Assembly: GCF_902506325.1 (NCBI RefSeq)
Contig: NZ_LR732328.1
Span: 496,001 to 560,000 of the forward strand
From: Limnobacter sp. 130
GTDB taxonomy: Bacteria; Pseudomonadota; Gammaproteobacteria; Burkholderiales; Burkholderiaceae_B
Direction of reading: 5' to 3'
Length of the DNA: 64,000 bases
Shown here: piece by piece, positions 23,668 through 58,923 of the stretch
How the letters are laid out: each line of letters starts with the position of its first letter
Position numbering within the stretch: position 1 is the first letter of the stretch
The notes under the pieces: model-generated
What the model was told of the DNA's origin: nothing
Database searches by the model: none
Seen by the model: the letters and a program-made list of their open reading frames with translations, nothing else
Made by a program: the position numbers and the translations under genes

Positions 23668-23795
23668 ATAAAAAAAACCCAAGCACTGTGAAGTGCTTGG
23701 GTTTAATCCACCAAAGGAGGAGGGTGGAGGAGACAACTTTGCACTGTGAAAGAAACTCTGCGATTGATGTGTCGTGGTTCATTCAAGTGACTACA
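23668..23795 (-). ncRNA. Candidate small RNA with anti-Shine-Dalgarno hairpin loop
   Basis: A transcript of about 130 bases is predicted between the promoter at 23802-23830 and the terminator at 23670-23704. A 6-bp hairpin UCCACC/GGUGGA (23707-23712 with 23723-23728) shows a 10-base loop CUCCUCCUUU, a near perfect anti-Shine-Dalgarno sequence, and another CUCC lies just upstream. Such loops are known in trans-acting bacterial small RNAs, and a betaproteobacterial family of toxic small RNAs with an anti-SD motif has been described. A 50-codon frame from ATG 23782 reads through the terminator and is less likely to be the product. Membership of the toxic family is inference. Confidence 0.65.
23670..23704 (-). 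terminator. Strong minus-strand terminator of the small RNA
   Basis: A perfect 13-bp stem (AAACCCAAGCACT 23675-23687 / AGTGCTTGGGTTT 23692-23704) with loop GTGA; in the minus direction it ends in eight T. The plus direction has only three T, so it is directional. Confidence 0.88.
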
Positions 23796-56521: not shown

Positions 56522-56556
56522 CACGCCCTCCTTTTTAAAGTTCATAAAGAAAGAAG

Positions 56557-56632
56557 CGTGAGCGCCGTTGTTTATTTCTTGTTCGAGCCTAGCACCCCAA
56601 AAAGCATGGGTGTGTCGCAACGCTCCTCGAAC
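56557..56632 (-). promoter_or_regulatory. SAH riboswitch upstream of ahcY
   Basis: On the minus strand the leader reads CGAGGAGCGTTGCGAC near its 5' end, GCTAGGCTCGAAC in the middle and AACAACGGCGCTCACG at the 3' end, which are the conserved blocks of the S-adenosylhomocysteine riboswitch. CGAG pairs with CTCG, and GAGCG pairs with CGCTC around the core. The 5' end coincides with the start point expected from the promoter at 56640-56669. SAH riboswitches turn genes on when SAH is bound, here ahcY-tlyA-metF. Confidence 0.92.
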
Positions 56633-56639
56633 GGCCTAA

Positions 56640-56711: not shown

Positions 56712-57878
56712 TCAAATGCCTGCGGCTGCTTTCAACGCTTCGGCTTTGTCCGTGCGTTCCCAGCTGAATTCTGGTTCCTCGCGGCCAAAGTGGCCATAGG
56801 CGGCTGTTTTTGCATAAATCGGGCGCAGTAAATCGAGCATCTGAACGATACCTTTGGGACGCAGGTCGAAATGGGCTCTGACCAATTCTGTAATTGCGCC
56901 GTCGTCAATTTTTCCGGTACCAAAAGTATTTACCATGATGGAAGTAGGGCGTGCCACGCCAATCGCATAGCTCACCTGCACCAGGCATTTTTCTGCCAAA
57001 CCAGCTGCGACAATGTTTTTGGCCACGTATCGACCTGCGTATGCGGCGGAACGGTCTACCTTCGAGGGGTCTTTGCCGGAAAATGCACCACCACCGTGGG
57101 GTGCGGCACCACCGTAGGTGTCCACGATAATCTTGCGACCAGTCAAACCACAATCGCCTTGAGGTCCACCAATTACAAAGCGGCCAGTCGGGTTCACCAA
57201 ATAACTGATGTCGCCTTTGATCAACTCTTTGGGCAACACCGGTTTGATGACCTCTTCAATCACCGCCTCCCGCAGCGTAGCCAACTCGATGTCCGGCGAA
57301 TGTTGTGTGGAAAGTACAACGGTGTCGATGCAATAAGGTTTTCCGTCTACATACTTGATCGTCACCTGCGATTTCGCATCGGGGCGCAGCCAAGGCAGTC
57401 GTCCATCCTTGCGCAACAGGCTCTGGCGTTGAACCAGCTGATGAGAAAGGCTGATCGCCAGCGGCATCAACTCACGGGTTTCATTGACAGCATAGCCAAA
57501 CATCAAGCCCTGATCGCCAGCGCCTTGGTCCAGGTCGTTGTCATGGGCTTTGTCCACGCCTTGAGCAATGTCCGGACTTTGTCGGTCGTAGCAAACCATC
57601 ACCGCGCAGCTTTTGTAGTCGATACCAAAATCGCCATTGTCGTAGCCGATTTTTTTCAAGGTATCACGCGCCACTTCGATGTAATTTACCTGCGCAGTGG
57701 TTGTGATTTCGCCAGCCATTACCACCAAGCCAGTGTTGGTCAAGGTTTCGGCAGCGACTCGTGCCTTGGGATCTTGTTCGAGAATTGCGTCTAATACCGC
57801 ATCAGAAATCTGGTCTGCTACCTTGTCTGGGTGACCTTCTGACACGGACTCAGAGGTGAAGAAGAATTCGTTAGACAT
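56712..57878 (-). CDS. metK: S-adenosylmethionine synthetase
   Basis: MetK (388 aa) makes SAM from methionine and [25 protein letters not shown] opens it (only part needed), [12 protein letters not shown] and the P-loop-like [19 protein letters not shown] are invariant. ATG 57878 follows GGAG by 9 bases. It is preceded by a leader of about 118 bases with a SAM-II-like aptamer, suggesting feedback by SAM. Confidence 0.98.
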
Positions 57879-57939
57879 TAAAAAAGCTCCAATAAAACAG
57901 GGGGTTATTACAGCCGCCATGTTCGATTGAAGCCCGGCG

Positions 57940-57998
57940 ACGCTTTAGCAGATTTGTTTTAGTTCGCCCCGCAAGTTGTCATTTAACTCAGCGAACTT
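57940..57998 (-). promoter_or_regulatory. Candidate SAM-II-like riboswitch upstream of metK
   Basis: On the minus strand a 7-bp stem GTTCGCT / GGCGAAC (57996-57990 with 57968-57962) closes a loop that begins GAGTTAAAT and ends CTTGCGG. It is followed by TAAAACAAATCTGCTAAAGCG. The stem position, the U-rich entry, the UUGC block and the GCUAAA block about 12 bases after the stem follow the SAM-II pseudoknot layout as I remember it. The 5' end falls at the start predicted from the promoter at 58003-58030. The ribosome site lies over 50 bases downstream, so an extra platform helix would be needed. SAM-V has a related core. Confidence 0.6.
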
Positions 57999-58002
57999 GG
58001 GA

Positions 58003-58030
58003 AATATACAACATTTGGAGGCGAAGGCAA
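58003..58030 (-). promoter_or_regulatory. Predicted promoter of metK
   Basis: TTGCCT (-35, 58025-58030) and TATATT (-10, 58003-58008) on the minus strand, 16 bases apart. The expected start near 57996 is the first base of the predicted aptamer stem. Confidence 0.55.
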
Positions 58031-58056
58031 AGCGAGGACTGGTTACAATCTGCCCC

Positions 58057-58923
58057 ATGATCAAATATTTGTTCAAAGTCCTGTCTGTATTTCCCTTGCC
58101 AATCCTGCACGCACTAGGCGCATGGTTGGGTTGGGCGGTATATGGTTTGTCGGCCAGTTATCGTCGAAAAATCGATGTCCACTCAAAAATCGCTTTTCCT
58201 CACAACGAGTCCTTGCGCTTGGCGGCTGTGAAAGGTTCGGTCAAGCATGCCGGAATGGCACTTTTGGAATTGCCTTTCCTTTGGGGATTGTCGACGCAAA
58301 AGGGTGCAGGGCGCTGTACCGATATTTCTGGTTGGGATGTTGTCCAAAAGGCTCAATCCAAAGGAAAAGGGGTTATTTTCCTAACCCCGCACATGGGCAG
58401 TTTTGAGTCCACGGCCCAGATATTTTCCACTCGCGCACCCATCACGGTCTTGTATCGCCCCAATCGCAAGGCAGAACTCCAAAATATCATCGAAGACAGC
58501 CGGGCCCGCGACAATGTCGCCTTGGCTCCCACCACGATTGGTGGTGTGAAAATCTTGCTCAAAGCCCTAAGGCGAGGCGAAGCGGTCGGGATGTTGCCCG
58601 ACCAGGTCCCGGCCCAAGGCGAGGGCATTTGGGCTCCCATGTTTGGTCAGCCTGCTTACACCATGACCTTACCGGGTCGACTGCATCAGTCAACCGGCGC
58701 TGTAATTGTTCTGGCAATCGGTTACCGAAAACCGGGTGGTAAAGGGTTTTGCCTTGAGCTTTACCCTGGCCCAGAATCTCTGAGTCCTGATCCCGTAGAG
58801 GCCGCCACACAAGTGAATGCTGAAATGGAAAAACTGATTCTGATGCATCCCGATCAATATTATTGGGGCTATGAGCGTTACAAGCCTCCCAAAGGTCAGC
58901 CTGGCCAACAAGGGCAATCATGA
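58057..58923 (+). CDS. lpxL: Lipid A biosynthesis acyltransferase (LpxL/HtrB-like)
   Basis: A 288-residue inner-membrane acyltransferase with an N-terminal membrane anchor (residues 8-28), the HX4E catalytic motif in TPHMGSFEST near residue 114, LYRPNRKAEL and MLPDQVPAQGEGIWAPMFG. It adds a secondary acyl chain to Kdo-lipid A or a similar lipid. ATG 58057 is chosen; sequence upstream in frame runs into the metK leader. The next gene is a paralogue that overlaps by 4 bases (ATGA), so the pair may add two different chains. Confidence 0.88.
   Translation: MIKYLFKVLSVFPLPILHALGAWLGWAVYGLSASYRRKIDVHSKIAFPHNESLRLAAVKGSVKHAGMALLELPFLWGLSTQKGAGRCTDISGWDVVQKAQSKGKGVIFLTPHMGSFESTAQIFSTRAPITVLYRPNRKAELQNIIEDSRARDNVALAPTTIGGVKILLKALRRGEAVGMLPDQVPAQGEGIWAPMFGQPAYTMTLPGRLHQSTGAVIVLAIGYRKPGGKGFCLELYPGPESLSPDPVEAATQVNAEMEKLILMHPDQYYWGYERYKPPKGQPGQQGQS

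Follow-up and report, generated by a model that had tools for sequence, protein, structure and literature searches.

metK encodes the enzyme that makes SAM, the main methyl donor of the cell, and the question raised by the locus described here is how the expression of this gene is set in betaproteobacteria. The metK gene considered lies in a stretch of 64,000 nucleotides (the window) from a genome close to Limnobacter, its MetK protein being 88% identical to that of Limnobacter litoralis, the closest named relative, and 97% identical to that of a marine bin. In the proteobacterial survey of Leyn et al. 2014 (PMC4239095; this and the other papers are cited from the parts of them available) a search for a regulator of betaproteobacterial metK was unsuccessful, and it was suggested that regulation of the gene is not conserved in this group or that metK is constitutive. 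Our best reading of the leader, from sequence comparison, is that it carries a metK-linked variant of SAM-II that acts on translation and is predicted to be turned off by SAM. A conserved SAM-II-like leader offers a possible answer to the missing regulation of betaproteobacterial metK, and one that can be tested with a single RNA.

Results

A candidate aptamer between a promoter and metK

Inspection of the minus strand directly 5′ of metK shows a stem with a loop block, and the sequence GCUAAAG. The pieces named in the original prediction of a SAM-II-like riboswitch, namely the stem GTTCGCT/GGCGAAC, the loop blocks and GCTAAAG, are present on this strand where it had placed them. Of the extent proposed, 57940–57998, the upper end is retained at 57998, whilst at the other end the aptamer reaches 57936, about 4 bases further. 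The working unit runs from the aptamer (57998–57936) onward to the metK start at 57878. A start at 57920, giving a longer reading frame, was set aside for 57878, which is preceded by the Shine-Dalgarno GGAG. The P1 loop in the window reads GAGTTAAATGACAACTTGCGG, and the parts of the locus, in window coordinates, are as follows.

58003–58030, minus strand: sigma-70-like promoter TTGCCT-16-TATATT (promoter scan; −10 spacing kept in relatives)
57936–57998, minus strand: SAM-II-like aptamer, 63 nt (covariance models, sequence profile, alignments A1 and A2)
57990–57996, minus strand: P1 5′ strand GTTCGCT (sequence, covariation)
57983–57989, minus strand: loop block GAGTTAA (alignment; its counterpart is GATTTG in 29 of 30 Rfam-grade SAM-II loci and CATTTG in one)
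57978–57980, minus strand: P2 (pseudoknot) 5′ strand GAC (covariation)
57969–57972, minus strand: P1a 5′ strand GCGG (covariation)
57962–57968, minus strand: P1 3′ strand GGCGAAC (covariation)
57948–57951, minus strand: P1a 3′ strand CTGC, with one G-U pair to GCGG (covariation)
57943–57949, minus strand: GCTAAAG block with putative SAM contacts (alignment; contacts transferred from the available part of a SAM-V structure paper)
57939–57941, minus strand: P2 3′ strand GTC, shared with the competing antisequestor (covariation, folding)
57936–57941, minus strand: antisequestor 5′ strand GTCGCC (pairing probability 0.99 with downstream bases in the transcript cut before the Shine-Dalgarno)
57926–57935, minus strand: sequestor 5′ strand GGGCTTCAAT (duplex energies, folding)
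57913–57918, minus strand: antisequestor 3′ strand GGCGGC (folding of the transcript cut before the Shine-Dalgarno)
57884–57893, minus strand: sequestor 3′ strand ATTGGAGCTT, containing the Shine-Dalgarno GGAG at 57890–57887 (duplex energies, folding)
56712–57878, minus strand: metK, SAM synthetase, ATG start at 57878 (TIGR01034, E 7.7e-182)

Two promoter-like sites were found in the 351 bases scanned, where 0.6 are expected, and the −10 hexamer of the promoter listed above begins 12 bases upstream of P1. Among metK leaders collected from relatives, a hexamer of the −10 type, with five or more of its six positions matching, begins 11–12 bases upstream of P1 in 89 of 123, or 85 of the 117 distinct leaders, and because this position relative to P1 is kept across leaders the RNA should begin with P1. 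A start of transcription at about the first base of the aptamer, where the original prediction had put it, is well supported by this comparison. The location directly behind a −10 box would also suit a conserved DNA site, such as an operator or promoter-proximal element; this explanation, like that of a leader peptide, does away with RNA structure and is weighed below against the covariation.

Rfam models make no call

The original prediction had named the Rfam models of SAM-II and SAM-V as a check. The first of these (RF00521, SAM_alpha) aligns to the element over its full length but scores 12.5 bits, where the gathering threshold is 36 (E 2.9 in 401 bases), and in a genome-wide search the element ranks fourth of 10 weak matches (E 5.5). 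By itself this score is at chance level and proves nothing, and by the curated score of Rfam the element is no member of RF00521. The SAM-V model gave no match at E up to 10 in 57750–58150, nor did the SAM/SAH model (RF01727) at the same limit. In the 16 genomes of the genus no RF00521 match lies above the gathering threshold; among the matches listed, the metK leader of one genome (G008, locus L121) gives 17.7 bits (E 0.15), and the best match in the remaining genomes fell outside the metK leader. None of 20 loci from relatives passes the threshold. Since Rfam makes no call in the 20 loci and 16 genomes scanned, annotation there misses the element.

That RF00521 gives just 12.5 bits, and that other places in the genome score equally, could mean that the element is real and its likeness to SAM-II a matter of convergence or chance. 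The reality of the element has to be decided by its relatives, because the RF00521 score alone reaches chance level only.

The element is conserved in front of metK

We examined 80 MetK loci, which are the nearest relatives in the genome collection and not a random sample, and found the element 5′ of metK in 73, of which 72 carry the search pattern and one (L062) a slight variant. It is absent from the other seven: four of methylotroph types (L024, L051, L075, L082) and three of Gallionella/Sideroxydans types (L059, L071, L076), labelled as Methylophilaceae, Methylotenera, Methylovorus, Gallionella, Gallionellaceae or Sideroxydans. Within the genus it precedes metK in all 16 genomes, our own included. 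A covariance model (R2) built from 25 metK leaders, 24 of them outside the genus, gives the window element 69.7 bits (E 3.3e-18), the next match in the genome having E 1.2; one row of R2 (L012) has an aptamer identical to that of G008, a genome counted in the genus. With L012 removed, a sequence profile of the 24 leaders has the element as its sole match in the 64 kb window (E 5.9e-16). Searches with a further model (R1, from 27 metK leaders) gave matches at E≤0.01 in 217 of 300 genomes from the order, a count that takes together the metK type and a second, GAUUU type (see below); across the phylum, 30 of 299 genomes have a match at E≤1e-4. On this comparison the element is a divergent SAM-II relative common to many genomes of the order, and no lone case.

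The 123 leaders were selected by a pattern demanding the GAC, TTGC and GCTAAAGNGTC blocks together with a MetK motif, so the invariance of these blocks among them is partly a matter of selection. From this set L004, L089, L121 and L125 were removed as duplicates, and L079 and L084, in which the MetK motif differs, were lost; 2 of the 117 distinct leaders have no recognisable Shine-Dalgarno, and the sequestor energies given below come from 115. High conservation of primary sequence alone also suits a protein site, and a structured leader read by a protein or another RNA, with no metabolite involved, has to be weighed as well. We return to it with the ligand contacts.

Three helices covary

In alignment A1, for which 27 leaders were taken from the 89 rows that the pattern search gave, three P1 pairs and two P1a pairs vary on both sides, whilst P2 (GAC/GUC) is invariant. 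In the wider alignment A2, of 110 matches from 100 selected loci, both-sided changes occur in 5/5 P1 pairs, 2/3 P2 pairs and 2/4 P1a pairs, though the P1 counts lean towards P1 because the alignment was fitted to it. In A2 95.8% of cells are paired, compared with 86.3% after shuffling and 23–49% after sliding. The gene labels in A2 are crude motif matches (metK 53, metX-like 3, metZ-like 10 and other 44 of 110), and at least L079, labelled other, is metK. As judged from these alignments, P1, P1a and the pseudoknot P2 covary, which indicates a P1 stem with an H-type pseudoknot between the P1 loop and the 3′ tail; the original prediction had looked to relatives' metK leaders for covariation of the stem, and there it is found. 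The spacers between loop and GCUAAAG measure 19, 21, 22, 26, 38 and 47 bases.

Compensatory changes in three helices, and spacers that do not follow three-base steps, make a DNA site or a leader peptide extremely improbable, in spite of the nearby −10 box.

Two loop positions are either A/A or G/G in 103 of 106 rows, and the 30 Rfam-grade SAM-II loci all have G/G. For the loop of SAM-II a homopurine pair, G-G or A-A, was predicted by Barrick and Breaker 2007, and our positions would correspond to theirs. The same source predicted a short SAM-II helix by mutual information, which P1a resembles.

A second type of element links the metK leaders to SAM-II

Of 299 genomes searched across the phylum, 49 have an RF00521 match above the cut-off. 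As Rfam-grade SAM-II loci we used 30 of the best of these matches (L154–L183), in genomes of another class that we take to be Alphaproteobacteria. R1 recovers 18 of them in the same position at E≤10 and leaves 12 unmatched. A second type of element, with GAUUUGA and CAGCUUGC, occurs in genomes of the order 5′ of metX-like or metZ-like genes, and those listed score 23–36 bits with RF00521. A bridging model (R3) was built from 27 elements of this GAUUU type; no betaproteobacterial metK leader went into it, and its rows include two metK leaders from another order of the class. In the genome of the window, R3 gives its best match to the element (E 2.2e-6, the next match having E 0.2), and a profile of the 25 rows left after removal of the two metK rows finds the element alone in the window, also at E 2.2e-6. 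The same model matches 30 of 30 Rfam-grade SAM-II loci at the Rfam position. Within the order it matches every one of 24 metK loci at E≤1, some of the matches being incomplete, and 17 of the 24 reach E≤0.01. Because R3 finds both sets, the second type bridges the metK type and SAM-II, and the comparison argues for a relationship by descent between the element and Rfam-grade SAM-II. With R3 and R1 joining the two sets at the right place and on the right strand, we regard a merely convergent or chance likeness as hardly credible. The matches to R2, R3 and the profiles, the 73 of 80 loci and the covariation together bear out the proposal of a SAM-II-like element before a betaproteobacterial metK.

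In several genomes the two types stand in tandem, a GAUUU element with G/G followed by a metK-type element with A/A (L130, L135, L139, L143–L147, L199, L200, L262, L263), and in six of the seven such arrays read the next gene encodes a small protein of about 100–110 residues beginning MYDC or MFDC. Scans of four of these proteins yielded none that passes a Pfam cut-off, and Pfam and NCBIfam searches of the small proteins behind tandem elements gave nothing above cut-off. In one family of the class (f55), ten genomes (L270–L273, L275–L280) have such an element, followed in seven of the ten loci, according to the reading-frame listing, by a protein of 102–106 residues; the two of these proteins that were scanned resemble a methyltransferase domain weakly, below the cut-off. 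Two loci of another class (L192, L281) carry a pair of consecutive SAM-II-like elements separated by a terminator-like stretch, and at L150 and L201 such elements precede what is, judged from sequence, an AAA ATPase-like protein.

A conserved helix can hide the Shine-Dalgarno

Over the 115 leaders the sequestor duplex has a mean energy of −13.4 kcal/mol, against −10.1 (sd 0.19) when partners are permuted between species, a control that includes partners of the same genus, and −8.2 with shuffled strands. This argues that a conserved helix can hide the metK Shine-Dalgarno. Terminator-like stems occur in only 4 of 115 metK leaders (about 1 in shuffled sequences) as opposed to 24 of 27 GAUUU-type elements (shuffled 0.5), and because of this difference metK control would not act by termination; none was found in the metK leader of the window.

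In transcripts cut before the Shine-Dalgarno, the antisequestor pairing exceeds 0.5 in 71 of 115, the window's among them at 0.99, and is 0.5 or less in 44. Equilibrium folding of the full leader was rejected as proof of switching, the Shine-Dalgarno being closed in both states: its mean unpaired probability over 115 leaders is 0.23 with the aptamer free and 0.22 with it blocked, and in the window leader it is 0.00 either way. As the Shine-Dalgarno of the full leader is hidden in either case, the decision of the switch would have to fall during transcription. In the cut transcripts, blocking the aptamer does not free the sequestor strand, whose mean downstream pairing is 0.26 free and 0.33 blocked (0.23 and 0.24 in the window's transcript). 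Pairing of the tail falls from 0.52 to 0.31 on blocking, partly by construction. Pairing of the tail with the P1 region was rejected as a general alternative, since it exceeds 0.5 in only 18 of 115. The platform is thus supported by conserved pairing, and the switching itself is predicted.

A proposed model for control of metK

Sequence comparison provides conservation, three covarying helices, a relationship to SAM-II, a conserved strand that can pair with the Shine-Dalgarno, and no terminator. On these grounds we think it likely that the metK leader is an OFF riboswitch of SAM-II descent that senses SAM and controls translation, for which we infer the ligand, the direction and the order of folding. 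The transcript would begin with P1, at its first base or close to it. With SAM in plentiful supply, the P1 loop and the GCUAAAG tail would close a pseudoknot around it (P1a GCGG/CUGC, P2 GAC/GUC), withdrawing the GUC of the tail from the downstream hairpin GUCGCC/GGCGGC; the freed GGGCUUCAAU could then pair with AUUGGAGC, hiding the Shine-Dalgarno and leaving metK untranslated. When SAM is scarce, GUCGCC/GGCGGC would form first and keep the sequestor strand in its loop while ribosomes load. The proposal of an OFF switch stems from the fact that the pseudoknot and the antisequestor hairpin share GUC.

The altered core and the expected ligand

The first U of the GAUUU block is a G in 113 of 117 distinct metK leaders and a U in 30 of 30 Rfam-grade SAM-II loci. 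In the 53 rows of A2 labelled metK this base is G in 46 and U in seven, two of the seven coming from another order. The pocket blocks GAUUU, UUGC and GCUAAA are otherwise kept, on a contact map that we transferred from the available account of SAM-V. Ligand binding in SAM-V is described there as virtually identical to that in SAM-II (Huang and Lilley 2018); in the SAM-V structure the counterpart of the changed base forms a weak pair with the adenine-holding uridine, and different bases lie opposite the sulfonium and the aminoacyl end. By analogy, the uridines facing the sulfonium, the uridine pairing with adenine and the adenine at the aminoacyl end would all be kept here. Because the mapped contacts are kept, recognition of SAM is expected, with altered selectivity possible.

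The exchange of G for U and A/A for G/G could on the other hand have shifted the selectivity of a SAM-II-derived aptamer, towards SAH, the balance of SAM and SAH, or another adenosyl compound. The consistency of the G is what such a shift would lead one to expect, as is the occurrence of both forms in tandem at 12 loci, some of them near-identical. We nevertheless hold this to be quite unlikely: the mapped SAM contacts are retained, the changed base being merely the weak partner of the adenine-binding uridine in the SAM-V text available, a metK context suits SAM, and a distinct Rfam-grade SAH riboswitch already precedes ahcY (56634–56553). The conserved contacts, together with the tie that R3 makes between the element and SAM-II loci, also weigh against a leader read by a protein or another RNA, which we consider very improbable.

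Unlikely, if slightly less so than a shift of ligand alone, is a bolder interpretation in which the metK type would form a separate class of a SAM-II/SAM-V superfamily, the core having been remodelled in one piece (U to G and G/G to A/A) for translational control with an altered ligand preference; tandems with the U and G/G terminator type might then gate uncharacterised small genes in two steps, possibly with two ligands.

Other RNA elements near and opposite the leaders

Scanning the window located a full SAH riboswitch (63.8 bits; 56553–56634, minus strand) before ahcY, so that metK and ahcY form one cluster with two different RNA elements, and also a Betaproteobacteria toxic small RNA (RF02278, 65.7 bits; 23669–23735, minus strand). 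In a search of five genomes, three exceeded the cut-off of RF02424 (Burkholderia sRNA Bp2_Cand287), and in all three the match lies on the strand opposite a SAM-II-like leader (L284, L285, L286); R1 matched the leader in two of the three and the pattern in the third, and after each leader there is a T run behind a stem. Possibly, RF02424 describes a SAM-II-type leader in the wrong orientation.

Discussion

Returning to our preferred reading, a SAM-sensing relative of SAM-II that controls translation of metK, it is useful to set it against earlier reports. SAM-II with terminators was already placed in betaproteobacteria by Barrick and Breaker 2007, and SAM-II in this group is also mentioned by Meyer et al. 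2009, both in the sections available; Leyn et al. 2014 (PMC4239095), in the accessible text, reported SAM_alpha only in Rhizobiales and Rhodobacterales. The literature searched, which includes accessible parts of PMC4239095, PMC6061858, PMC2258182, PMC1273637, PMC2704228, PMC2864571, PMC9373788 and PMC11109978 and lies mostly outside subscription papers, yielded no betaproteobacterial metK SAM-II element, and a search of PMC5352136 for residue names found nothing. The occurrence of SAM-II in betaproteobacteria as such is known, and it is for the translational metK type that we found no prior report. The core changes, G for U and A/A for G/G, track the split between terminator-linked and translational elements, which constitutes a natural experiment in the retuning of a pseudoknot aptamer.

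With SAM-II (RF00521) the element shares the P1 stem whose loop pairs with the 3′ tail into a pseudoknot, the GA.UU loop block, UUGC, GCUAAA and a loop pair that is A/A or G/G, as well as a gene context of methionine and SAM (here metK, TIGR01034), and one model, R3, matches both it and the full set of 30 Rfam-grade loci. It differs in its RF00521 score of 12.5 bits where 36 are called for, in the G for the first U of GAUUU, in having A/A where the 30 loci have G/G and a P2 of 3 bp (GAC/GUC), and in its metK target, its separate Shine-Dalgarno sequestor and the lack of a terminator-like stem in 111 of 115 leaders. The metXZ RNA element of Leyn et al. 2014 (PMC4239095), for which a pseudoknot and a terminator were proposed in the text available, is likewise betaproteobacterial and associated with methionine genes; it is described there as transcriptional and linked to metX and metZ. 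Our second type (GAUUU, G/G) with terminators is probably this same element, and a U and G/G core is ascribed to it through that probable identity. The SAM/SAH riboswitch (RF01727) of Rhodobacterales metK is, from the sources available, also a small SAM-binding RNA before metK, although its model has no match here at E up to 10. SAM-V likewise acts on translation, and binds its ligand in virtually the same way as SAM-II (Huang and Lilley 2018). In most SAM-V RNAs, according to the part of the literature available, the Shine-Dalgarno lies in the outer helix of the pseudoknot, whereas in the metK leader it is about 50 bases downstream, at 57890–57887 and outside that helix, the strand of which is at 57941–57939.
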